Source of the DNA: Natroniella sulfidigena
GTDB taxonomy: Bacteria > Bacillota > Halanaerobiia > Halobacteroidales > Halobacteroidaceae
Direction of reading: 5' to 3'
DNA length: 41,523 nucleotides
Assembly: GCF_023223645.1 (NCBI RefSeq)
Contig: NZ_JALKBY010000021.1
Location: 1-41,523, forward strand
Below, piece by piece: positions 11,232 to 37,615 of the stretch. A program made the translations under genes and the position numbers. The notes under the pieces were generated by a model. It saw nothing but the letters and a program-made list of their open reading frames with translations, did no database searches and was not told where the DNA came from. Numbering within the stretch: the first letter of the stretch is position 1; every line of letters starts with the position of its first letter.

Positions 11232-11425
11232 TAAATTTCTCTCCTTTAAATTAGATACTTATATTATACAATGGAGCTACTTATATTATATCACGTTAAT
11301 GTCGCAAGGATGCCACCTGATTCATCTGGTGGAGGAATTGCAACGGTTTATCTTTTTTATATAGAATAAAACATTATACATATTAACATAATAATAGGTT
11401 ATATTATAATTAAGAGGTGATAAGA

Positions 11426-12505
11426 TTGCATTTAACTTTGCACCATTTAAAATTATACAAACCTACTAAAACTAAATTAAATAAAATTGAATTGCTATCT
11501 AAGAATTGGAATAAAGCAATTCGTTCAGCACTCAAAATTGTTAAACATTGGGGATTTACTGCTTATACTAAATCCCATAAACAGACATATAGAGTTTTAA
11601 GAAATAATTATAAACTTCCTAGTCAAGTAGCCAATGAGGCGAATCGTAAGGCTGTTGAAGTTTATAAAGTTAATGAAAATTCTAATTTTAATAGAATAGT
11701 ACCTGTTAGATTGGTACACAAAAAATCCTTTGAAATTATCAATAATGAAGGTAAATATTTTGCTAAGATATTAACTCCTAATAAAGATAAAGTTTATTGC
11801 CCGTTATCTTTTGGAGAATATCAATTAAACTACCTCGAAGATGATAATTACAAGATTAAAACTGCACAACTATATAAATCTAATAATGAATGGTATTTAG
11901 ATTTAACTTTAGAATATGAACAACCTAAAAGAGATACTGATACAACTCTAGGCATTGATTTAGGTATTATCAACCTTGCTACATTTAGCATTTTAGATGA
12001 AGATCAAAATATATTACATACAGAACATATATCAGGTGAACAACTAAGATTTAAAAGAATGAGGTATAAACAAAAACGTAAAGCTAAAGCTAGATCCTCT
12101 GGAAGTTTAAAAACCTCTTTGATTAAGGAAAATCAAATCTGTAAACAACTTAATTGGAAGATTGCCAATAGAATAGTTAATCTAGCTGATAAATATAACT
12201 CTAAAATAGTATTTGAAGATTTAAAGAATATCAGAAAAAATATTACAAATGGTAACACTTTAAATAACTATGAAAAGAACAACTGGGCTTTCTACCAACT
12301 AAAACAATTTATCAAACATAAAGCTAATTTAAAAGGACTTCCAGTTGAAGAAATTAACCCTAAAAACACCTCTCAAACTTGCTCTGTATGTGATCAAAAA
12401 GGATTTAGATCTGAATATAAACAAGACTTCTTTAAATGTGCTAATGGACATATTCTAAATGCTGATAGTAACGCAAGTATAAATATTGCTAAAAAAGCTA
12501 TTTAA
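11426..12505 (+). CDS. tnpB: TnpB, RNA-guided nuclease of IS605 family (OrfB)
   Basis: 359 residues from a TTG at 11426, which has AGAGGTGAT at the proper distance; the in-frame GTG at 11417 overlaps that ribosome site. The N-terminal wedge/REC part runs to about residue 170. The RuvC nuclease follows, with Asp177 in GIDLG, Glu264 in VFEDLKN and Asp347 in NADSNASINI, so the catalytic triad is complete. The zinc finger has the first CSVC pair, but the second knuckle reads FKCANGHILNAD, where a CxxC is usual, so one Cys is absent. TnpB cuts DNA guided by an RNA from the right end of the element, next to a short target-adjacent motif, and helps to retain the element at its site. The gene is intact, with no frameshift. 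Confidence 0.93.
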   Translation: MHLTLHHLKLYKPTKTKLNKIELLSKNWNKAIRSALKIVKHWGFTAYTKSHKQTYRVLRNNYKLPSQVANEANRKAVEVYKVNENSNFNRIVPVRLVHKKSFEIINNEGKYFAKILTPNKDKVYCPLSFGEYQLNYLEDDNYKIKTAQLYKSNNEWYLDLTLEYEQPKRDTDTTLGIDLGIINLATFSILDEDQNILHTEHISGEQLRFKRMRYKQKRKAKARSSGSLKTSLIKENQICKQLNWKIANRIVNLADKYNSKIVFEDLKNIRKNITNGNTLNNYEKNNWAFYQLKQFIKHKANLKGLPVEEINPKNTSQTCSVCDQKGFRSEYKQDFFKCANGHILNADSNASINIAKKAI

Positions 12506-13703: not shown

Positions 13704-15089
13704 TTAACTATCTTTTACAGTTATCTCTTTATCTTGATCACAAATTATTTTTTTTGCTTCGTTATCAATTATTGTCTCTAAGTGGATTGGCCCTCCCCAT
13801 AACTCCATCATATATTTTAAGGTTTCTGTAGCATAACCCATCTTCAATTCCTTTCCAACATATTCATGTTGCAGGTACAGAATATTATCCTTTTTAGAGA
13901 ACTCAACTATCTTGATTGTAGGAAATTTATTCATTCCAACTGAATTAGCTAATGTATTTCTGATCTCTCGCCAGCCACCTTCATCAGCTACTTCTGAGAT
14001 TGAATAATACCTTTTCTTCTCATCATATTTTAATAACTTCATCTCTCTGATCAAATCAAATGTAAGATATTTTCTAATAAAAGACTCATCTCGCTCTAAT
14101 TTCCTAACTTCAAATATTTTTTCTGCTTGGTCAGGATTTTTTTCCTTGATATTATTAAATATCTTATAGCCTATATAATATGGATTCAAATTTAGTCCTT
14201 TCTCATTTGGAGAAATCAGTTGATTATGCCTTTTGATAAATTCTAAGTGCATTCCTTGAGGTAGATCTAGTTCATTTAAAATTTGATAATGCCAATAACT
14301 TGCCCATCCTTCATTCATGATTTTTGATTCGAGCTGAGGAATAAAGTAAGCAGTTTCATCGATTACTATCTGTAAAATATCCTTTTCCCAATCTTCTAAG
14401 TCACTATATTCAATCAAAAAGCTTAAAATATCTTCCTCTGGTTCCAAAGGAATTTTATTCAGATCAGGCATTTGTTCATCCTTTTTATCTGTTAACAGTT
14501 GAAACTCTTTATATTGAGGCTGATATTTTTCTTTGATTCGTTTAATCTTCTCTTTTCTAGTTAGCTTCTTTTCGTTAATTACCTTAGAAGTTTGAAATTT
14601 TAAAGCATGAGCAGTATCTAAGATTCTTTCAACTCTCTGATAGCCAATTCCTGGGTTAGAAATGTACTCCCTAATTCGCTTGGCATGATTTTTAAACATC
14701 TCTAATGTATACTCGGCATTGGTCCCTTCTCTAAATAAACGATTATTTTTAAAAAAGTCATTATGTCCATAAACATGGGCCATAGTCAAAATCTGTAATA
14801 AAAGTGAGTTTTCCTTCATTAAATAAGCTAAACAAGGATTAGAATTAATCACCATCTCATAAGGTAGGCCGGTTAAATTATATTTATAAAAGGTTTTAAT
14901 CCTCTCATAAGCCTTCCCATAACTCCAATGGGGATAACGAGCAGGCATACCACTATAAGCTTGATAGCTAATCATATCTTCAAAAGAGCAAATTTCAAAC
15001 TCTTGTTGATAATAATCCAACCCTAACCTATCAACGATATCTTCTATCTTTTTATTCCACTCAATCAATTCATTAATACTAAATTCCAT
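13704..15089 (-). CDS. spoVR: SpoVR family sporulation protein
   Basis: 461 residues, close to Bacillus SpoVR (468). Family marks include the FEICSFEDMISYQAYSGMPARYPHWSYGKAYE region near residues 27-60 (here cited only as a location), the AHVYGHNDFFKNN stretch near 103, the MNEGWASYWHY motif near 258-268 with acidic and His residues typical of a metal site, and the ANSVG...P segment near 385. SpoVR is needed for cortex formation in the mother cell of Bacillus; its E. coli homologue YcgB belongs to the YeaG/YeaH group. It begins 10 bases after yhbH and is the last gene of the operon. Its molecular activity is unknown. Confidence 0.96.
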   Translation of the reverse strand: MEFSINELIEWNKKIEDIVDRLGLDYYQQEFEICSFEDMISYQAYSGMPARYPHWSYGKAYERIKTFYKYNLTGLPYEMVINSNPCLAYLMKENSLLLQILTMAHVYGHNDFFKNNRLFREGTNAEYTLEMFKNHAKRIREYISNPGIGYQRVERILDTAHALKFQTSKVINEKKLTRKEKIKRIKEKYQPQYKEFQLLTDKKDEQMPDLNKIPLEPEEDILSFLIEYSDLEDWEKDILQIVIDETAYFIPQLESKIMNEGWASYWHYQILNELDLPQGMHLEFIKRHNQLISPNEKGLNLNPYYIGYKIFNNIKEKNPDQAEKIFEVRKLERDESFIRKYLTFDLIREMKLLKYDEKKRYYSISEVADEGGWREIRNTLANSVGMNKFPTIKIVEFSKKDNILYLQHEYVGKELKMGYATETLKYMMELWGGPIHLETIIDNEAKKIICDQDKEITVKDS

Positions 15090-15098
15090 CCTTATCCC

Positions 15099-16262
15099 CT
15101 ACCCTTCTTTATCACTTTCTAACATCTCTTTGAAAGAAGGCCAGATATCTTCCTTTTTTGTAATTCTAACTAAAGCTAGGTTATCACTATCAATATTTTC
15201 AGAGTAGATTGATTTAATTGCACTTCTAGTATAATTAGGCTTTATTTCTCCATAACCAAACAAATTACAAACATCACATAATTTTTTGGCATATTCTAAA
15301 GCCTTTTGGTTATCTTCACTCCAATTATCACCATCGCTACAATGAAAACAATAAACATTCCAATGCGATGGATCATAACGTTGTTCAATTATCTCCAATC
15401 CCTTTTGATAACCACTACTGATATAAGTTCCACCAGATTCTCCTTTGTGGAAGAAATCATCCTCCGTTACCTCTTTTGCTGTTGTAGTATGAGCTATAAA
15501 TACGATTTCAACATTTTGATATTTCATTTGGATAAATTGATATAATAAGAAGTAAAAACTACGGGCCAAATACTTCTTAGTCTGATTCATTGAAGCAGAA
15601 GTATCCATGATACAGATGACCACTGCATTAGATTCCTTGCGTTCCTCCTCTTTAATTCGATAGTAACGAAGGTCTTGATCATGAAAAGGAAACCTTTCCT
15701 CTTCATCAAAATCATCATGAGCTCTAGCATAAGCCTTCTTTCTTTTGATTCTTTCAATCATAGTTCTTTTCTTAGCTAATCTTGGAGGAATTCCTTTCTT
15801 TTTATAACCTGACTTCTTAAAAGTACTTTCAGTCTCAATTTGAGATAACTTCTTCCGCTCCATATAAGGCAGATCTAAATCTTCAAATAGATAGTCTATC
15901 AACTCTTCAATAGTAATCTCCGTTTCATAGATATCCTCGCCTTCTTCATTCCCAGCTTGATCTGAGCCCCCTTGGCCTGAACCTTGTTGCTTCTGGGGTT
16001 TAGAGATCTTATCTCCTCTCTTTTCTTCACCACTTCCACTTGCCACACCTGATTTGTTATTCCCATGTACAAAACGATACTCTTTTAAACCTTTAATCGG
16101 GATCTTGATCTTTTTATCCTTACTCTTTCCAATAATACTTTCATCAGCAATAATATCACTAATATTCTTCTTTATACTATCTTCTACCAACTCTCGATGG
16201 CGCCTACGATCTTCAGCAGAACGGTCTTTACCTGTGTTTTCATACTTTTTAAATATAGCCAT
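15099..16262 (-). CDS. yhbH: YhbH/DUF444 sporulation protein with VWA domain
   Basis: 387 residues, similar in length to Bacillus YhbH. The N-terminus has the family start IFKKYENTGKDRSAEDRRRH. A Gly/Gln/Ser-rich low-complexity linker (about 75-108) follows. The C-terminal von Willebrand A-like domain (about 215-380) has a MIDAS motif, DTSAS, and the downstream GGTYISSGY loop. Proteins of this family (YeaH in E. coli) are always paired with the PrkA/YeaG kinase and may be its partner or substrate. It lies 11 bases after prkA and 10 before spoVR. AGGGGG precedes the ATG. Confidence 0.96.
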   Translation of the reverse strand: MAIFKKYENTGKDRSAEDRRRHRELVEDSIKKNISDIIADESIIGKSKDKKIKIPIKGLKEYRFVHGNNKSGVASGSGEEKRGDKISKPQKQQGSGQGGSDQAGNEEGEDIYETEITIEELIDYLFEDLDLPYMERKKLSQIETESTFKKSGYKKKGIPPRLAKKRTMIERIKRKKAYARAHDDFDEEERFPFHDQDLRYYRIKEEERKESNAVVICIMDTSASMNQTKKYLARSFYFLLYQFIQMKYQNVEIVFIAHTTTAKEVTEDDFFHKGESGGTYISSGYQKGLEIIEQRYDPSHWNVYCFHCSDGDNWSEDNQKALEYAKKLCDVCNLFGYGEIKPNYTRSAIKSIYSENIDSDNLALVRITKKEDIWPSFKEMLESDKEG

Positions 16263-16273
16263 TTTCTACCCCC

Positions 16274-18202
16274 TTAATCTTTCCAGAGGTTATTAGCAGC
16301 ATACTTTAAGATTACATTACAGCAATGATCACAATAACCATTTCGTTTCATCTCTTCAACCATAGCATCGTATTTTTCCTTCTGATCTTCATCTCTTACT
16401 TTCGCTTGAGTTATAACCCGAGATAACTCTTTAACTGAAGCAATCAGCTTTTTCTCTATTGCCTCTTTTAACGGTTCATAACTCGTATAATCTACCTTAG
16501 ACCCTTTTCTCATCAAAGCAAACATATATGACGTTACATCTTGCCTAAACCCTTTAGCAGTCGTACCAGTAATACCAATTTGTGCTTCAATCGACTTTAG
16601 AAACTCTACATCTGGCTCTAGTTCTTCTCCAGTATTGTCATCCTTGATCTTTGTCTTATTGACAAAAGCTTCAGCATGATCTAAATAATTATTAAATAAT
16701 TGTTCGGCTTGTTCCTGATAGCCAACAACAAATGCTCTAGTAACTTCTTTTTCTAGAAGCTTATTATACTCCTTTTTAATACTATCCTGCAAAAACTCTA
16801 AATACTTTTTCTTCTCATCTTCACCGATTGATAACTCCTTAACAGATTTGATCAATGCTTCTAAAACAGATAATGGGTTGATACAGTTATGTTCTGATTC
16901 AGATAAGCAATTATCTAAACATTTAGTAATAAATCTTGGAGAGATCCCTTCCATCCCTTCTTCTGCTGCTTCCTCTCTTAACTCCATAATATCAACTCGC
17001 TTAGTAGTCCCTTGCTCTACAATCTCTTCACCATTATAAATCTTAAGCTTAGTTACAGGATCTACCTTATTTGAAGGGGCTAATCTACTTAAAATAGCAA
17101 ACATTGCTGCTACTTTAATTGTATGAGGAGCAATATGTGCATCAAACTTACTCTGGCCTAAAAGCTTCTCATAAATTTTCTCCTCCTCACTTAACTGCAG
17201 ACAATAAGGAACTTCAACTCTCACAATTCTATCAAGAATAGCTTCATTTGTATGATCAGACTTGAATTTATTCCATTCTGCTTCATTTGAATGAGCAATT
17301 ATTAGTCCATCAAAATAGATCATAGATCCTTTCCCTGGAGAAGGAATCACCTTTTCCTGAGTAGCAGTAATCATTGTATGAAGATACTCAACATCATTTT
17401 TAAAGACCTCAATAAATTCTACTAACCCTCGATTTCCTACATTAAAAGCTCCATTCAAAGAGAATGAACGCGGATCATCTTCGGGATATAAATCTAGTTT
17501 AGAGATATCTACAGATCCAATCAATACTGAAGTATCTTGGTTGTTAGGATCAACTGGAGGAACTACTCCAATCCCTTTTCTAGATGTAATTGAAAAATCT
17601 TCAGTTACTACCGGAAACTTCTCATAATCACCATCAAACTCATTTTCTAATCGATAGCGACAATGAGGGCACAACTCCCCTTCTATCTCTACTCCTAATA
17701 ATTCTTCAAATTCAGAACGAAGATGCTTAGGTATTAGATGAAGTGGCTCTTCTCGCATCGGACAGCCTTCTAAGGTATAAATTGGCGGTAATTCTTCTAA
17801 TCTTCTCTTTAACAGCTCAACTATAGAAGATTTTCCTGATCCTACAGGACCAAGAAGGTATAAAACCTGCTTTGACTCTTCCCCTTTCATTGCTGCTGAC
17901 TTGAGATAACGTACAATCTTCATAATAGTTTTATCAATTCCATAAAAGTCCTCAAAAAAGTCATACTTTTTAATTGTATCGTGACCATATATTCTCCGCA
18001 ATACTGGATCTTCATCAGTCTTAATCACATTGACATCCCTAGAAACAACCATATCATAAATTCTCTCATGAGCTAACTTAGTAACATCTGGCTTGGCAGA
18101 AACCACCTCTAAATAATCAAGAAAGGTTCCTTCAAACCTCTCCCTTTCTCTTTTTTCTTTACTCTTTTGAATTAAATCATTAAAATCAACTGTGTCAGTC
18201 AC
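16274..18202 (-). CDS. prkA: PrkA family AAA+ serine protein kinase/protease
   Basis: 642 residues (Bacillus PrkA 631). The AAA domain has Walker A GPVGSGKS near residue 118 and, downstream, the MIYFDGLIIAHSNEAEWNKF Walker B/sensor region. The C-terminal PrkA domain runs from about 390. Two Cys pairs are present, CPHC near 187 and CDHCC near 628, which may bind a metal. Bacillus PrkA is made in the mother cell under SigE and acts on sporulation through SigK, and has been described both as a kinase and as an ATP-dependent protease (established work). A GTG start follows AAGGAGGGAG. First gene of the prkA-yhbH-spoVR operon. Confidence 0.97.
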   Translation of the reverse strand: MTDTVDFNDLIQKSKEKRERERFEGTFLDYLEVVSAKPDVTKLAHERIYDMVVSRDVNVIKTDEDPVLRRIYGHDTIKKYDFFEDFYGIDKTIMKIVRYLKSAAMKGEESKQVLYLLGPVGSGKSSIVELLKRRLEELPPIYTLEGCPMREEPLHLIPKHLRSEFEELLGVEIEGELCPHCRYRLENEFDGDYEKFPVVTEDFSITSRKGIGVVPPVDPNNQDTSVLIGSVDISKLDLYPEDDPRSFSLNGAFNVGNRGLVEFIEVFKNDVEYLHTMITATQEKVIPSPGKGSMIYFDGLIIAHSNEAEWNKFKSDHTNEAILDRIVRVEVPYCLQLSEEEKIYEKLLGQSKFDAHIAPHTIKVAAMFAILSRLAPSNKVDPVTKLKIYNGEEIVEQGTTKRVDIMELREEAAEEGMEGISPRFITKCLDNCLSESEHNCINPLSVLEALIKSVKELSIGEDEKKKYLEFLQDSIKKEYNKLLEKEVTRAFVVGYQEQAEQLFNNYLDHAEAFVNKTKIKDDNTGEELEPDVEFLKSIEAQIGITGTTAKGFRQDVTSYMFALMRKGSKVDYTSYEPLKEAIEKKLIASVKELSRVITQAKVRDEDQKEKYDAMVEEMKRNGYCDHCCNVILKYAANNLWKD

Positions 18203-22751: not shown

Positions 22752-23207
22752 TTAAGTATCGATCACTTCTTTACCCCACCTAACAATAAAATAAGAAGCT
22801 ACTACTGAAAAAAGTAGATTATCTAAAAATAAAATCATATTACTTGTAGCATCATTAGGGACTATCCAAGCTCCTACATCATAAAAAAAGCCATAGATTC
22901 CAATATACATAATACCTACTATCAGAACTGGCCCTTTAAACCACCAGTAGTCTCTGCCTGTAACTCTGAATAGGTAGATAATCAAAACACCCAAAATCGC
23001 TGAAGTAATCATCCATAATGAAAACCCTAAAACTACACTTAAAGGACTACGAGTAAATTCTTCAAGCATATAAATACTAGAAGCTATTTCAAATGTATAA
23101 TATTCCATAAATCCTAATTGAACAGCAATGAAATTAAATAATAACGAAGGAATCGTTCCTACTATCCCAGCTAGACCTCCTAAAACTATCGTATCGTCAA
23201 TCTTCAA
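22752..23207 (-). CDS. Small four-helix membrane protein, paralogue family member
   Basis: 151 residues from a TTG with AGGAGGAG upstream. Four hydrophobic segments (about 8-30, 52-78, 90-112, 124-145). It shares with the proteins at 27980-28429, 29180-29623 and 35320-35763 the N-terminal GLAGIVGTIPSLLFN pattern (G-x-x-A-G then a Ser/Pro, Leu-Phe-Asn), similar helix spacing, and an ending of the type S-x-x-x-S-x-x-I-V-x-W/Y-G-K (SVVASYFIVRWGKEV). The family is not named here; it resembles conserved small membrane proteins of spore-forming Firmicutes. No catalytic residues are visible. A terminator follows. Confidence 0.75.
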   Translation of the reverse strand: MKIDDTIVLGGLAGIVGTIPSLLFNFIAVQLGFMEYYTFEIASSIYMLEEFTRSPLSVVLGFSLWMITSAILGVLIIYLFRVTGRDYWWFKGPVLIVGIMYIGIYGFFYDVGAWIVPNDATSNMILFLDNLLFSVVASYFIVRWGKEVIDT

Positions 23208-23499: not shown

Positions 23500-23931
23500 T
23501 TAAGCACCATCAAAAGTTCTAGCTACAGGTACACAGATTATCTGTCCACTGACTAAATCTTCTGGTCTAATACCAGGATTAACTCTTCTTAATTCTGCTA
23601 CTGTAGTGCCAAATCTTCTTGCTATTGAAAAGAATGTGTCTCCTCTTCTGACAACATATTCTCTAGTTCCTCGTGGGCAACGCCTTCTTGGAGGTCTTCT
23701 TCTCGGAGGTCTTCTTCTCGGAGGTCTCCGTCGCCTTCTTCTCCGTCTTCTTCTTGGAGGTCTTCTTCTACCTGGGTTATCTGTTCCTCCTAGCCATCTA
23801 TCGTCGTCCCAATCATTGTCCCAGTCATCATCCCAGCCATTGTCCCACCAGTCATCATTCCAATCATCCCAGTCGTCATCCCAGTGATCACAATCTGCAG
23901 GATTAAAGGATTTATCATCATATTGACCCAT
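23500..23931 (-). CDS. LysM protein with Trp/Asp block and Arg/Pro block
   Basis: 143 residues from the ATG at 23931, chosen for AGGAGG seven to eight bases upstream. Residues 16-46 are almost only Asp and Trp with a few Asn/Gly (nine Trp); residues 55-84 are Arg runs broken by four Pro-Pro pairs; one Cys follows at 85; residues 91-137 are a LysM domain (EYVVRRGDTFFSIARRFG...LVSGQIICVP). LysM binds peptidoglycan or chitin-like glycans; in spore formers it targets coat proteins such as SafA to the cortex. There is no signal peptide, as expected for a mother-cell coat protein. The separate acidic-aromatic and basic blocks suggest self-association by charge pairing. A coat or exosporium role is inference. 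Confidence 0.85.
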   Translation of the reverse strand: MGQYDDKSFNPADCDHWDDDWDDWNDDWWDNGWDDDWDNDWDDDRWLGGTDNPGRRRPPRRRRRRRRRRPPRRRPPRRRPPRRRCPRGTREYVVRRGDTFFSIARRFGTTVAELRRVNPGIRPEDLVSGQIICVPVARTFDGA

Positions 23932-23983
23932 AATCTTCCTCCTTTCCTCTTTTACCACATTATATTCGAGGATGAAGATTATG

Positions 23984-27979: not shown

Positions 27980-28429
27980 ATGTTTGATCATGCTATAGGA
28001 GCATTAAGTGGAATAATTGCTGGCATTTTCATGGGCTTAATTAGTATGACATTATTTCGAATTGGCATCTGTAAGCTTTGTATAATTGCTATTGGTGGTG
28101 GAATCTTTACTGGTCAATTAGTAGAACTACAGCCTTATGGACTTATTATAGCCTGGCTAACTCATTTGTCCTTGAGTGCTGCCTTTGGAATACTTATAAC
28201 TATAGTGCTAAATCATTTTGGTAGTAAATACCATGTGTTAACAGGAGCAGTTTTATTAACCTTAATCTATTTAGCTAATATCGGTATTATAGCTCCACTG
28301 AGAGGAACCATCCCTGATGACCCAGAATATTTCGACTTACTTTTGATACTGTTATACCATATCTTCTTTGGAAGTTTAACTAGCTTTTTAATTGTTAAGT
28401 ACGGAAATAAAGAGCGATCCTACTCTTAA
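27980..28429 (+). CDS. Small four-helix membrane protein, paralogue family member
   Basis: 149 residues, four hydrophobic segments (about 6-50, 56-80, 87-106, 120-140). Start GALSGIIAGIFMGLISMTLF follows the G-x-x-A-G pattern of the family found also at 22752-23207, 29180-29623 and 35320-35763, and the end (IFFGSLTSFLIVKYGNKE) parallels that of 22752-23207. A CKLC pair near residues 31-34 is unique to this copy. AGAGGAG lies ten bases before the ATG. It is the only family member on the plus strand. Function unknown. Confidence 0.75.
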   Translation: MFDHAIGALSGIIAGIFMGLISMTLFRIGICKLCIIAIGGGIFTGQLVELQPYGLIIAWLTHLSLSAAFGILITIVLNHFGSKYHVLTGAVLLTLIYLANIGIIAPLRGTIPDDPEYFDLLLILLYHIFFGSLTSFLIVKYGNKERSYS

Positions 28430-28632: not shown

Positions 28633-29154
28633 TCAATCTGGATTATAGATAGGATATACTGGCAACCACCCTTTAGCTTTTGCATATTTACAGCATTGGA
28701 GCATAACATCAGCTTCTTCTTTGACAAAGTCTATAAACATCACCCTTAAAGAATCACTATGAAGTACAGCGATCGCATTCCGTAAGTTTCTTTGAATTGC
28801 TGCTACACAACCATCACGTATACTCTCCATAATTAATTGATCATTAATTAAAGAGGTATCATTTGCACTTTCTGTTACCTTTACACTTTCTGGTGATCTA
28901 GTTGGTTGAGCGACATTGTATTTATCCATTTGCTCCTCTAACATTCCAATCTCTTTTTCTAAATATTTTTTTCCTGTTGTAATCAAAGCTTTTAGTTCAG
29001 TATCTTTGGCCCATTTGTGATAATGTTTAGTCTTTGCTAAACAGACATGTCTATAATATAACTGCTGTGACAATATAAAAGCCTCACCAATATCTATCTT
29101 TGGTTTTGTAGATGATTCTCCTTTACCGATGTGGAAATTGCCTATCTGAACCAT
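28633..29154 (-). CDS. DUF3231 family protein, single domain
   Basis: 173 residues, one DUF3231 domain, an all-helical, ferritin-like four-helix fold related in outline to the spore-coat protein CotF family. Typical features are the AFILSQQLYYRHVCLAKTKHY helix (start near 27), YLEKEIGMLEEQM, YNVAQPTRSP between helices 2 and 3, and the ending CCKYAKAKGWLPVYPIYNPD. Several His/Glu residues could bind a metal, but no clear diiron ExxH pair is seen. DUF3231 proteins occur mainly in spore formers. It is 25 bases behind the four-helix membrane protein gene, with GGGGG before its ATG: a two-gene operon. Confidence 0.88.
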   Translation of the reverse strand: MVQIGNFHIGKGESSTKPKIDIGEAFILSQQLYYRHVCLAKTKHYHKWAKDTELKALITTGKKYLEKEIGMLEEQMDKYNVAQPTRSPESVKVTESANDTSLINDQLIMESIRDGCVAAIQRNLRNAIAVLHSDSLRVMFIDFVKEEADVMLQCCKYAKAKGWLPVYPIYNPD

Positions 29155-29179
29155 ATTGCACCCCCATTAAGATTTTTAC

Positions 29180-29623
29180 TCATACTTTCAGTCTATCATC
29201 CAACCAATTAAGAACTATCCCTAATGCTAATCCCCATAATAAACCGGAGATAAAGTTAGAGATGACTGTTTGTAATTCGACATCTGCCAACTTTGGCAAC
29301 TGAAATAAGAAAGGTATTGCAAAAGATATAAACCAGATAGCAAGACCATAGATACTACTTTTTAATAAGTAATGTTGACTTGAAATTAGAGGTAGTAAAA
29401 AGACAAAGATAATACCTAATCCTCCTAAAAAAAGAGCTTGTGCGATTGAGGAAAAGACTACTTCTGCCACTCCAACAGGTCTATCACCAAATAAAAACAC
29501 CCCCATAAAATCTCCCCAAAGTAAATTGGTAAAGTTTAATGTATAGGCACCAATATTGAAGAGAAGAGATGGTAACCCAGCAATAACTCCTGCAATTAAG
29601 CCTCTTGTAAATCTATCTCTCAT
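29180..29623 (-). CDS. Four-helix membrane protein, DRFTRG type
   Basis: 147 residues from the ATG at 29623, set by AAAGGGG upstream and by the identical length of its paralogue at 35320-35763. Starts MRDRFTRGLIAGVIAGLPSL and ends LNWLDDRLKV. Shared with the paralogue are DFMGxFLxGxRPxGV in the first loop, SSxxYLLKS in the middle, IWF in helix 3 and LNWLDDRLK at the C-terminus. The Asp/Arg-rich ends face the same side of the membrane. First gene of an operon with a DUF3231 gene. Function unknown; a membrane dock for the DUF3231 protein is inference. Confidence 0.85.
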   Translation of the reverse strand: MRDRFTRGLIAGVIAGLPSLLFNIGAYTLNFTNLLWGDFMGVFLFGDRPVGVAEVVFSSIAQALFLGGLGIIFVFLLPLISSQHYLLKSSIYGLAIWFISFAIPFLFQLPKLADVELQTVISNFISGLLWGLALGIVLNWLDDRLKV

Positions 29624-29783
29624 ATTTATTCCCCTTTTAGTAGTATTCATTATTTAAGCTTTACAATTTGCAAAAAGTTTATACTTATTAAGAAGAATAG
29701 TTCTGTTAACCAATAATTCCTAACCGCCCTTTACTCTTCTTTAGTAAGATAATAGCCTAGTAATAGTTAAAGATTTCTAAAGA

Positions 29784-30992
29784 TTAACTCAAATATTTAC
29801 TAACCCCTAAAGCTGCTTTGGCTCCTTCAGCTGCTGAAATTATTATCTGCTTATATGCTATATTAGTCACATCTCCGGCTGCCCAAACTCCTTCTAAGCT
29901 AGTTTCATTATTTTCGTCAATTATAATTTCTTCAATCTCATTAACTTCGACTTTATCTGCTATAAAATCACTATTAGGTAACAGTCCAATCTCCACAAAG
30001 ACTCCATCTACATCTAATCTTCTTTCTGTTTCTTCATCAATATCAGTAAGTATGATTGAACTTAAACTATCATCTTTTTCATCCACTTCAATTTCTTTAA
30101 CCCCAGTCTCTGTATGAACTGTTATAAGTTCTTGCTCATAAACTTTATCTCTTAAAATTTGATCACCTGTCAATTCAGATTGAGCCTCAATCAATTCAAC
30201 CTTACAATCAATCTTTGCCAAATCAAGAGCTGCTTCAAGACCAGCATTGCCACCACCAACTACTGCCACCGGCTGACCTGCATACAGGTGACCATCACAA
30301 GTTGCACAATAATGAACTCCTCTCCCCATTAACTTCTTTTCTCCAGGTACATCCAATTCTCGATTAGTAGTTCCAGTAGCTACTAGCACCGCTTTAGCTT
30401 GAGCTTCTATTTCAGTATTTGTCTTTACAATCAAGCCTGCTTCAGGTTTCTTTTTTACCTCTACTACTCTTTCTCCTAACTCTACCTCAACTTCATAATT
30501 TTTTACATGATCCCAAAATGATTCTGTTAATTCAAGGCCATTGGTTTTCTGAAATCCTAAATAGTTCCCTATTTCACTTGTATTTACCATCTGACCACCC
30601 ATTACTTCTGCAATTATTAATATTTTTAAACCTTTTCGAGCTCCATACAAAGCAGCATTTAAACCTGCTGGACCAGCTCCGATAATTATCAAATCCCACT
30701 GTTGATCAAAATTATCTTCCGCTTCAACTCCTAGCAATCGATCTAACTCTCCTTGCTGTTTCTTCTCTATCATTGAGTCATAACCACCAACAAGTTGATC
30801 ATCAATAAAAATTTGTGGAACAGCCTTAACTCCATCAGTCCTTTTTAGCAGCTCCTCTTTAACTTCTGGCTGCTCAACATCATACTCCTGAAATGAAAAA
30901 CCTTTACTCTTCAAAAAAGATTTGGCCTTATTACAGTAAGGACACCAATTCAAAGTATAAATTTCTATTTTTGGTTGACTATTTTTAGGCAT
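29784..30992 (-). CDS. Glutaredoxin-thioredoxin reductase fusion
   Basis: 402 residues from the ATG at 30992 (GAGGGGG eight bases upstream). Residues 1-82 are a glutaredoxin with the active site CPYC near 17-20 and the substrate-binding VPQIFI and GGYDSM. From residue 96 follows a complete low-molecular-weight thioredoxin reductase: FAD loop GAGPAGLNAALYGARKG, redox pair CATC near 228-231, NAD(P)H loop GGGNAGLEAALDLA, and the C-terminal FAD motif VWAAGDVTN. The reductase should pass electrons from NAD(P)H via FAD and CATC to the attached glutaredoxin domain, which replaces a separate thioredoxin or glutathione. Such fusions are known in some anaerobes. No oxidative-stress partner is in the operon. 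Confidence 0.95.
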   Translation of the reverse strand: MPKNSQPKIEIYTLNWCPYCNKAKSFLKSKGFSFQEYDVEQPEVKEELLKRTDGVKAVPQIFIDDQLVGGYDSMIEKKQQGELDRLLGVEAEDNFDQQWDLIIIGAGPAGLNAALYGARKGLKILIIAEVMGGQMVNTSEIGNYLGFQKTNGLELTESFWDHVKNYEVEVELGERVVEVKKKPEAGLIVKTNTEIEAQAKAVLVATGTTNRELDVPGEKKLMGRGVHYCATCDGHLYAGQPVAVVGGGNAGLEAALDLAKIDCKVELIEAQSELTGDQILRDKVYEQELITVHTETGVKEIEVDEKDDSLSSIILTDIDEETERRLDVDGVFVEIGLLPNSDFIADKVEVNEIEEIIIDENNETSLEGVWAAGDVTNIAYKQIIISAAEGAKAALGVSKYLS

Positions 30993-31289
30993 ACTGATCA
31001 TCCCCCTCGTAATCATTTTTGTCTAAACAAAAACAATCATAAATCAAACAAGTCTGGATTGATAAAGGGCCAACAATTAAAAACTCCCATCTAATACGAT
31101 AAGAGTCTGCTGATAATTAAAGTTATATTCTGCTAAGACCCTTTTAATAATTTATACAACATTGCTTCTATTCATTCTTTAAAAAAAGATTATATTTGCT
31201 AATGCAGTATTCTCCTGGATCTTAAATAAATTATAATCTGGAAATTATATTGATTTTATGATATATTAGTTGGATAAGAGGTGATTTTC
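30993..31289. other. Divergent promoter region
   Basis: Spacer between the reductase and the GlcD-GlcF gene. A decayed hairpin of the ACTCTTA terminator family (ACTCCCATC ... GATAAGAGT, about 31081-31106) is present, with no gene ending there. Otherwise AT-rich with no recognised motif. Confidence 0.4.
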
Positions 31290-34667: not shown

Positions 34668-35147
34668 TTAACCTTGATTGAAACTTGGTAATCGATTAGT
34701 TCGATAAATATAATAAGTTATACCTAAGTGAATGAGTAAAGATGCTAAAAAAGTATATAACAGATTCCAATTTGTATAACTCAATAGTCCATAATCAATC
34801 AAAAAATAATGAACCACTACAGCAGCTAAAGGAAAACTTAAAATAATACTTAAAAAAGCAGGAATTGTTTTAAATTTAACTACTAAATAAGAAAAAATAA
34901 TAATAATTGGCAGCCAAGCAACAGAAAGTAAGAGTGGTATATCACCAATAACTATAATATCAACATTGTGAAAATTCCAGAAACCAAACATATTTTGCAT
35001 TAAATAAACCAGTATTAAAGCAAGTACTAGCCCTCCTACAAGACCAATATTAAAAAACTCTCTAATCTTTTGTTCAGGAACGACTAAAAACATAAAAAAT
35101 AAAGATAAAAGTAATATTAATCCTCCAACAAGATTCTCCAAAATCAA
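34668..35147 (-). CDS. CBO0543-like five-helix membrane protein
   Basis: 159 residues from the TTG at 35147, which has AGAGGTGAT upstream; the in-frame GTG at 35156 overlaps that site. Five hydrophobic segments. The loop and helix IGDIPLLLSVAWLPIIIIFSY (about 69-89) corresponds to LGIPIFIFIAWFAAIIIF in the protein at 37139-37615, and both have a preceding helix ending in N-x-x-x-x-W/F-R/N. This is the layout of CBO0543-type membrane proteins of spore-forming Clostridia and Bacilli, which have no known function. Downstream of the DRFTRG/DUF3231 unit but separated from it by a terminator. Confidence 0.7.
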   Translation of the reverse strand: MILENLVGGLILLLSLFFMFLVVPEQKIREFFNIGLVGGLVLALILVYLMQNMFGFWNFHNVDIIVIGDIPLLLSVAWLPIIIIFSYLVVKFKTIPAFLSIILSFPLAAVVVHYFLIDYGLLSYTNWNLLYTFLASLLIHLGITYYIYRTNRLPSFNQG

Positions 35148-35215
35148 TTTTATCACCTCTTAATTAATTTCTCCTTGCTTGATATATATATACATTTAGA
35201 AATTTATAAAAAGAA

Positions 35216-35319: not shown

Positions 35320-35763
35320 TTATGTTTTAAGCCTGTCATCTAACCAGTTAAGGATTAAGCCAAGACCTATACCCCAAACTGAAGCCCCGATAGCATGTGT
35401 AATAGCTGTCTTAATAGGTATCTTTTCAATCTCAGACAATTTAAAAAGAAATGTAAGAAAATACGTTGAAAACCATATGGTAACTCCAAATAACCAAGAC
35501 TTTAATAAATAGTTTTCACTTGAGAAAAAAGTGATTAAAAAGGCAAAAATGATCCCCATTAATCCCAATAAAACAAATTGTGATGTTAAAGTAAATGCCA
35601 TTGGCAGAACACCTTCAGGTCTCTTGCCAAGTAAAAAAAGCCCCATAAAATCTGACCAGACCAAAGTACTCAAGTTTAACATTTTACCACCAAAATTTAT
35701 AATGAAAGAAAGTATCCCAGCAGTAATTCCAGCAACAAAACCTCTTGTAAATCTATCCTCCAT
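35320..35763 (-). CDS. Four-helix membrane protein, DRFTRG type (second copy)
   Basis: 147 residues, same length as 29180-29623 and about 45 percent identical by eye. Starts MEDRFTRGFVAGITAGILSF and ends LNWLDDRLKT. Conserved between the two are DFMGxFLxGxRPxGV, SSxxYLLKS, IWF and LNWLDDRLK, that is, mainly the loop and terminal charges, which would be expected if these contact a soluble partner. It lies 116 bases behind the tandem-DUF3231 gene; in the first module the order of the two genes is reversed. GGAAGG before the ATG supports the start. Confidence 0.85.
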   Translation of the reverse strand: MEDRFTRGFVAGITAGILSFIINFGGKMLNLSTLVWSDFMGLFLLGKRPEGVLPMAFTLTSQFVLLGLMGIIFAFLITFFSSENYLLKSWLFGVTIWFSTYFLTFLFKLSEIEKIPIKTAITHAIGASVWGIGLGLILNWLDDRLKT

Positions 35764-35879: not shown

Positions 35880-36845
35880 TTACTTAGTATATTTAGGTGG
35901 TGTTGGTAACCATCCTTTAAGTTTGCCATATTTACTGATCTCATTTAACATATCCATCTCTTCATATAAAAAATCTTTAAAAACCTTCCTAATCCGATCA
36001 TTAACAATACATTGTTGAAAGGCTTTAGAATGTAAAGTCCCTGCCCATTGTAATCCAATAAATAATGATTTAAAAATATATTCATCCTTATAAGTAGTTT
36101 TATCATTAGTAGTTTTTACTACTTTAGGAGGTCTTTTAGGAACCATAAGACCAAAATGTTTAAGCTCTTTTTCCAATACTTTAACCTGGCTGTTCAATTT
36201 TTTTAAACCCTTTTCTAAAATCTTTTTGAAATCAGCATCATGTACAAATTCTTTCCATCTTAAGGTTTCTTCAATATTTACATAGCGATAATTTGTATGG
36301 GTCCATAAATTAAATGCTTCTATACTAGCTAGTTGTTCATTGGTATCTAGAGGAACATCTAAAAAATTAGGAGGAATATCAATCCAACCTTTAGTCTTTA
36401 AATATTTTAAAATATTATCAGTTTGTTCAATAGCATGCTTAGAAAACCTCTGTAAAAAGGTGTAGACTTCATCATTGTAATATGAATGTTGGATTGAATA
36501 AAGAATCAAATCAACTATTTGTTGTAAAAAATTGAAGTAATTTAAACCTATAGTCTCATCTGATATAACTTGTGAATTAGCATCTATGTGTGCATGTGAT
36601 TTTGGTCTTTGAGGTGCTTCTATTGAATATTTTTCTAATTCCTTTTCTAAAAGCTTGATATGCTCCTCTAGATCTTTTAAAAAATCTTTTATCAATATCT
36701 TTAAATCTTTATCATGGACTTGAGCATGCCAGACTTGAACATTATTTATTGCATGGTATTTAGAAGATAATAAATTCCATAATGCATGTGCTTCTAAAAC
36801 ACTTACCTTTTGATCTTTTCTAAAAAATGAAAAAATAATAGTCAT
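35880..36845 (-). CDS. Tandem DUF3231 protein
   Basis: 321 residues with two DUF3231 units (about 10-150 and 165-315). Each has the same order of marks: helix with W-N/T-L..., HDxDxK (VHDKDLKILIKDFL; VHDADFKKILEKGL), LEKEL-K-Y/F, a Pro-rich hinge (APQRPKSH; VPKRPPKV), and a terminal LKTKGWIDIPP or GKLKGWLPTPP. The duplication makes one chain equal to a dimer of the 173-residue protein at 28633-29154. Weak ribosome spacing: AGGGAG is only three bases before the ATG at 36845 and abuts a GTG. No signal peptide. Upstream of a DRFTRG membrane protein gene. A spore-related role follows from the family distribution only. Confidence 0.87.
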   Translation of the reverse strand: MTIIFSFFRKDQKVSVLEAHALWNLLSSKYHAINNVQVWHAQVHDKDLKILIKDFLKDLEEHIKLLEKELEKYSIEAPQRPKSHAHIDANSQVISDETIGLNYFNFLQQIVDLILYSIQHSYYNDEVYTFLQRFSKHAIEQTDNILKYLKTKGWIDIPPNFLDVPLDTNEQLASIEAFNLWTHTNYRYVNIEETLRWKEFVHDADFKKILEKGLKKLNSQVKVLEKELKHFGLMVPKRPPKVVKTTNDKTTYKDEYIFKSLFIGLQWAGTLHSKAFQQCIVNDRIRKVFKDFLYEEMDMLNEISKYGKLKGWLPTPPKYTK

Positions 36846-37035
36846 CACTCCCTGCTATTATGTTATCTCCTATAATATTAAGTTGAAATATACTTTCTTA
36901 AGTTACATCAATATAATCTCTTTACTTACGTTATACTTATTGGCTAAATATTATTCACTAATTTATTTGACCTTCCTAAATTACAATAATAGATTTATTA
37001 TACCCTATATTAGATTGGCATAAAGTTGGCCCGAA

Positions 37036-37093: not shown

Positions 37094-37138
37094 ACTTTGA
37101 AATACTAAATTTAAAATAATTTGCAAAAGGATGATAGT

Positions 37139-37615
37139 ATGTTGCAAGAGATTATTGGAGATTCTTCCCCTGTGTATCCTATTTGGGCAACAATTATGAT
37201 GGTTTTGTCTCTGATACTTGTTAATAAAAAAGATTATCAATATTTATTACCACTTGGACTTCTAGGTGCAATTATCGCTAGTCTTATAGCAATGATCTCT
37301 AATCATATAATTAATGCTTGGAGGTATGTAGAAGCTGAGCCTTTCTCTATACTAGGTATACCTATTTTTATCTTTATTGCCTGGTTTGCTGCAATAATTA
37401 TTTTTCTTTGGGCACTTCCTAAAGAGAATCAAACTTGGATACACTACCTATATATCAGTTTGTTTTCTTTGTTTGGAGCCGCAATAGATGGTCTTTTCCA
37501 TAATTTAGGGATTAGATCATATGCAAATTGGTATAGAGGTTGGATATGGTTTTTTCCTTTATATTTAATCTTCTGGATCAATTATAGAATTTTCTTATTC
37601 CGAAAAAAATATTAG
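37139..37615 (+). CDS. CBO0543-like five-helix membrane protein
   Basis: 158 residues from the ATG at 37139 with AAAAGGATG upstream; a TTG 18 bases earlier precedes that site and is not used. Five hydrophobic segments. The central part YLLPLGLLGAIIASLIAM, then HIINAWRYVEAEPFSILGIP and IFIFIAWFAAIIIFLWALP, is the typical CBO0543 layout (GLxGA, N-x-W-R, SILGIP, AWxxxIIF). It is diverged from 34668-35147 but has the same plan. Unlike its neighbours it is on the plus strand. Function unknown. Confidence 0.78.
   Translation: MLQEIIGDSSPVYPIWATIMMVLSLILVNKKDYQYLLPLGLLGAIIASLIAMISNHIINAWRYVEAEPFSILGIPIFIFIAWFAAIIIFLWALPKENQTWIHYLYISLFSLFGAAIDGLFHNLGIRSYANWYRGWIWFFPLYLIFWINYRIFLFRKKY

Follow-up and report, generated by a model that had tools for sequence, protein, structure and literature searches.

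The locus raised the question of why genes for a soluble DUF3231 protein and for a small membrane protein stand side by side twice in the same window (the whole analysed stretch of Natroniella sulfidigena DNA, 41,523 nucleotides), and whether the two partners function together. In module 1, a membrane protein ORF at 29180-29623 (minus strand; 147 residues, four long helices; alternative start at 29650) is followed after a gap of 25 bp by a single-domain DUF3231 gene at 28633-29154 (minus strand; 173 residues, ferritin-like four-helix bundle). In module 2, a tandem DUF3231 gene encoding two domains (35880-36848, minus strand; 322 residues) is followed after 116 bp by a gene for a membrane protein of the same family (35320-35763, minus strand; 147 residues). 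The two membrane proteins are 48% identical and share the motifs DRFTRG, DFMGxFLxGxRPxGV and LNWLDDRLK. Thus, both modules were present as the original prediction had described them, with the opposite gene orders that it had pointed out, and both orders were also found beyond this genome. The exact DRFTRG and LNWLD ends were found in a single close relative, L015 from genome G059, and in part in a few others, so they are not general to the whole membrane family.

A divergent homologue of the membrane family is encoded at 27980-28429 (plus strand), convergent with the module 1 DUF3231 gene; it was recognized by a profile in whose construction the sequence itself had been used, and its branch in the tree is long. 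The DUF3231 gene of module 1 therefore has a membrane-family gene on either side. Module 2 is flanked on both sides by a second family of small membrane proteins resembling CBO0543, with one gene downstream of the membrane gene (34668-35156, minus strand) and another divergent from the DUF3231 gene (37121-37615, plus strand; start possibly at 37139). Elsewhere in the window, at 22752-23207 and 23500-23958 (both minus strand), a further gene of the membrane family, whose product shares 56% identity with a member from genome G002, stands beside one for a LysM protein that is rich in Asp and Trp at its start and in Arg and Pro in its middle.

The assignment of the soluble partners was examined with the profile PF11553 (DUF3231; Pfam gathering cut-off 29.6 bits), against which the module 1 protein scored 41.3 bits and the module 2 tandem protein 90.8 bits in two stretches. 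The predicted structure of the module 1 protein was a four-helix bundle (pLDDT 88.9), and the closest solved structure was PDB 2RBD, the protein BH2358 from Bacillus halodurans (Z 20.3 and rmsd 2.8 over 155 aligned residues); ferritin-like proteins came next, with Z from 17 to 19.5. BH2358 has the same fold and a DUF3231-like sequence (profile E 4.2e-14), and it is 19% identical to the module 1 protein over the structural alignment. The title of 2RBD, "putative spore coat protein", is an annotation-based name as far as could be seen. The fold is also that of ferritins, bacterioferritins and Dps (ferritins and Dps at Z 17-18). Di-iron ferritins, however, bind metal through ExxH ligands, and no conserved ExxH motif was present across 27 DUF3231 domains, in which only E24, D51, D105 and W163 were invariant. 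E24, D51 and D105 lie where helices begin or just beside, and E73 is close to where helix 2 ends. A di-iron site of the ferritin type is therefore not expected, and the description of DUF3231 as ferritin-like holds for the fold but not for the metal site. The literature searched, which was incomplete in coverage, yielded no paper mentioning DUF3231, in line with the earlier statement that the family has no described function.

The membrane partner of module 1 was modeled as four long helices with a short helix in the conserved loop (pLDDT 91.9). Structure searches with this model gave no significant match in Foldseek (best E 0.69) and uninformative values in the VIA comparison (Z of 6.5 at most), and the family profile matched none of the sequences of solved structures. 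A slight lean of positive charge toward the N-terminus, the middle loop and the C-terminus weakly favours a topology in which both ends would face the cytosol. When 37 aligned membrane proteins were compared with known families at E values up to 1, 12 matched DUF6789 (PF20587), three DUF1440 (PF07274) and two YqhR (PF11085); the best E values were 4.6e-7 for DUF6789 and 0.0011 for YqhR. The family resembles DUF6789 and DUF1440 in size and in the four-helix layout, and several members matched these profiles over the full length, although every match listed for an individual protein was under the cut-off; the relative L021 came to 26.1 bits against the DUF6789 cut-off of 27.1 bits. The two module proteins in the window did not match DUF6789 at E values up to 1. 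The membrane protein may thus be regarded as a four-helix bundle distantly related to DUF6789. No homologues of the family were found on plasmids. Papers on DUF6789 and on CBO0543, as far as their titles and abstracts tell, do not appear to treat the function of either family.

To place the two modules in a wider context, positions of the families in 59 genomes of the same class were compared with random placement; contig ends, gene density and common ancestry are not taken into account in this model, which makes the numbers approximate. The genome studied contains five DUF3231 genes and 10 membrane-family matches. Of these five, the genes of modules 1 and 2 are the only ones with a membrane-family gene at 300 bp or less; another has two such neighbours, roughly 1.4 and 1.9 kb away. 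Over the class, a membrane-family gene was found within 300 bp of 3 of 36 DUF3231 genes (0.10 expected) and within 5 kb of six (0.55 expected). When both membrane families were counted, the number within 300 bp rose to 5 of 36 (0.14 expected), and with the home genome left out, five were found within 2 kb (0.25 expected).

The neighbourhood of DUF3231 was also studied in 398 genomes from the phylum of G059, a sample in which several genomes of the class are repeated. DUF3231 was present in 73 of them, often in several copies. Sixty loci, chosen for DUF3231 only and with recognized repeats left out, were taken with about 5 kb on each side and scanned with profiles built from the class proteins and two proteins of G059. 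Among 138 genes at most 500 bp from DUF3231, 6 were of the membrane family, compared with 2 among 475 more distant ones (Fisher p = 0.002); with the second membrane family added, the contrast gave p = 0.0005. The pairs came from genomes G175, G429, G442 (two loci) and G106. In G106, DUF3231 has a membrane gene on both sides, and in G175 the order is CBO0543-like gene, three DUF3231 genes, membrane gene. The association that the gene-neighbourhood statistics were to reveal therefore extends beyond this genome and beyond the class. It is real but loose: most DUF3231 loci have no membrane-family neighbour (33 of the 36 class genes have none within 300 bp), and the genes do not form a fixed operon. 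Of the earlier idea of a repeated two-gene module, the recurrent adjacency beyond chance stands, whereas the fixed unit does not.

The relation of the second membrane family to CBO0543 (NF041644, cut-off 35 bits) was found to be indirect. The proteins at 34668-35156 and 37121-37615 did not match NF041644 at E values up to 1, and they are linked to it only through L277 and L245, which were found with the profile of the window proteins and themselves match NF041644. CBO0543 proteins over the cut-off do occur next to or near DUF3231 in other loci (L282 in G389, L277 in G206 and L267 in G106), and CBO0543-like relatives stand beside DUF3231 in G029 and G175. These genes are less particular to DUF3231, as two copies adjoin a SASP gene. 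In both cases, which belong to one genus, the CBO0543-like gene directly follows the SASP gene on the same strand (G001, C1:1009475-1010179; G002, C4:101799-102755), which provides a further link of the family to the forespore.

The history of the pairs was examined with trees of both partners. The membrane proteins of the two modules grouped with one G059 protein, whereas their DUF3231 partners did not group together: the module 2 protein fell with proteins of G001 and G175, and the module 1 protein formed a long isolated branch. The origin of both modules by duplication of one pair is not supported: close paralogy holds for the membrane proteins, while the DUF3231 proteins stand on separate branches. 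One of the G175 genes that group with module 2 also adjoins a membrane gene. The G001 protein, by contrast, is a clear orthologue (81% identical in the C domain, 71% in the N domain) without a membrane-family neighbour. On contig C4 of the genome studied, a DUF3231 gene is closest to one of G442, and both lie near membrane genes, at different distances. Judging from these branching orders, the pairs seem to have arisen on more than one occasion and not as copies of a single pair. Short or degenerate membrane-family copies near DUF3231 (L240, 8961-9182, minus strand, in G175; L125, 5183-7152, plus strand, in G001) suggest turnover of the pairs.

The distribution of the two families was also compared with that of spore genes. 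In the class, 27 genomes were GerA-positive. All 20 genomes with DUF3231 were among them, as were all 14 with the membrane family, each of which also had DUF3231. Among the GerA-positive genomes, the membrane family occurred in 14 of 20 with DUF3231 and in 0 of 7 without it (p = 0.002, kinship ignored). Genome G059, which was found through its membrane protein, likewise has DUF3231 genes, though not adjoining the membrane gene. The confinement of the membrane family to GerA-positive genomes of the class links it to sporulation. SASP and GerA genes served as controls for proximity. At a limit of 10 kb, none of 45 membrane-family genes had a SASP gene nearby (1.4 expected), and two had a GerA-family gene (1.0 expected). 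The family thus shows no proximity to SASP genes and at most a weak one to GerA genes, so that its link is particular to DUF3231.

Upstream regions were searched for promoters with the consensus sequences of Bacillus. Exact patterns proved too strict and gave no matches; instead, the best match per region was set against shuffled sequences and 121 control genes from the same loci. Enrichment of sigma-G matches was seen upstream of DUF3231 (p = 2e-4) and of the membrane family (p = 2e-6), values that are somewhat too small, as are those below, since the gene sets include orthologues. A second matrix, which started from the sigma-G consensus and was then fitted anew to the promoters of SASP genes in the class, gave p = 1.6e-4 and 9e-5, respectively. 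Sigma-F matches were also enriched upstream of the membrane family, and the DUF3231 genes of the phylum loci gave p = 1.8e-5 for sigma-G and p = 0.006 for sigma-F. No enrichment of sigma-E, sigma-K or sigma-A matches was detected upstream of either family. This pattern points to the forespore and the inner membrane rather than to the mother-cell coat, and together with the phyletic pattern it bears out the proposed spore link. The sites in the window itself are weak. For the DUF3231 gene of module 2, a weak candidate promoter of the sigma-G type (approximately 36921-36957, minus strand; TGAATA-18-TAACGTA) has a score reached by 17% of control genes; its -35 part lies inside a block of 13 bases that is identical upstream of the G001 orthologue, where the site reads TGAATA-18-CAAAATA. 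The CBO0543-like gene at 37121-37615 has a sigma-G-like site, AGAATA-18-AATACTA. The module 1 genes scored no better than controls. Sigma-G control is thus supported at the level of the families, not gene by gene.

The observed adjacency, the shared phyletic pattern, the predicted folds and the promoter enrichment are best explained by sets of accessory proteins that are made in the forespore, belong to the spore inner membrane and include DUF3231 as their soluble subunit, a reading to which we assign a probability of about 0.45. According to it, DUF3231, single or tandem, would be a cytosolic protein of ferritin fold without a di-iron motif, made in the forespore under sigma-G, as would be the small DUF6789-like four-helix membrane protein and, at some loci, a CBO0543-like membrane protein of the same set. 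The membrane protein would be located in the inner membrane of the spore (the forespore membrane), its two ends pointing to the spore core, and DUF3231 would dock on the core face of that membrane. Such a set would most likely serve to adjust the inner membrane (its permeability, ion release or stability) during dormancy or germination, and not to store iron. Joint function, which the original prediction had argued from co-occurrence in both orders, is thus supported, with the spore inner membrane as its site, by that adjacency, by the phyletic pattern and by the sigma-G-type promoters.

It is possible, although we would rather bet against it, that DUF3231 has no joint function with the membrane families and that all are independent products of the forespore, gathered in the same variable regions as members of one regulon. 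The loose and mixed pairings, with different subfamilies in different genomes, and the CBO0543-like genes beside SASP genes in two genomes are what such clustering would produce. The membrane family, however, keeps no company with SASP genes and little with GerA genes, and it is absent from class genomes without DUF3231. Promoter type speaks against the idea that DUF3231 is a mother-cell coat protein and that the membrane proteins are unrelated or belong to the outer forespore membrane: sigma-G and not sigma-E or sigma-K types were enriched upstream of either family, which makes this idea clearly unlikely in spite of the title of 2RBD. The tandem protein did exceed the Coat F cut-off (PF07875; 28.7 bits against 25.7), and the single-domain protein reached 13.6 bits, but the DUF3231 score was higher in both, and far higher in the tandem protein.

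YqhR has been renamed FigP; it is reported to be a partner that SpoVAF cannot do without in an ion channel of spores (PMC11837508, PMC11841064). The modules resemble the SpoVAF/FigP complex of Bacillus subtilis in combining a small spore membrane protein with a partner, but the partner of FigP is the membrane protein SpoVAF, whereas that in the modules is a DUF3231 protein of ferritin fold. That the membrane proteins are FigP homologues partnering SpoVAF-type channels, with DUF3231 regulating the channel, appears very unlikely. The module 1 membrane protein matched YqhR at 16.1 bits over nearly its full length, the only such match in the class, another member reached the E value of 0.0011 given above, and GerA-family proteins of about 495 residues, the size expected of SpoVAF, are encoded in this genome. 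Yet the module 2 protein gave no match, nothing in the genomes of the class exceeded the YqhR cut-off of 27 bits, from which the module 1 score is far, and DUF6789 fits the family better, with matches in 12 of 37 members where YqhR had two. Moreover, ten GerA-positive class genomes, with those lacking DUF3231 set aside, gave no membrane-family match (the counts of 14 and 20 given above leave six), so SpoVAF seems not to depend on this family. The likeness to YqhR/FigP is therefore only suggestive, a lead to be followed. A membrane-tethered ferritin storing iron or another metal would agree with the fold, but the missing ExxH and the placing of E24, D51, D105 and E73 at or near helix ends leave iron storage unsupported and highly improbable.

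With DUF3231 linked to the forespore, to sigma-G-type promoters and to two families of small membrane proteins, three families of unknown function become one testable hypothesis on the spore inner membrane; how the permeability of this membrane is controlled is a central issue for germination. A bolder version, in which the sets form an undescribed modular forespore complex on the core side of that membrane, with interchangeable paralogous pairs that would control permeability or ion release in dormancy and germination in parallel to SpoVAF/FigP, is rather doubtful.

Other genes of the window were also noted. A row of SpoVR, DUF444 and PrkA genes at 13704-18202 (minus strand) constitutes a sporulation-linked operon. 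By eye, an ORF of 410 residues at 29784-31016 (minus strand) appears to encode a glutaredoxin-like domain fused to a thioredoxin-reductase-like protein, and one of 362 residues at 11417-12505 (plus strand) resembles a TnpB protein of the IS200/IS605 type.
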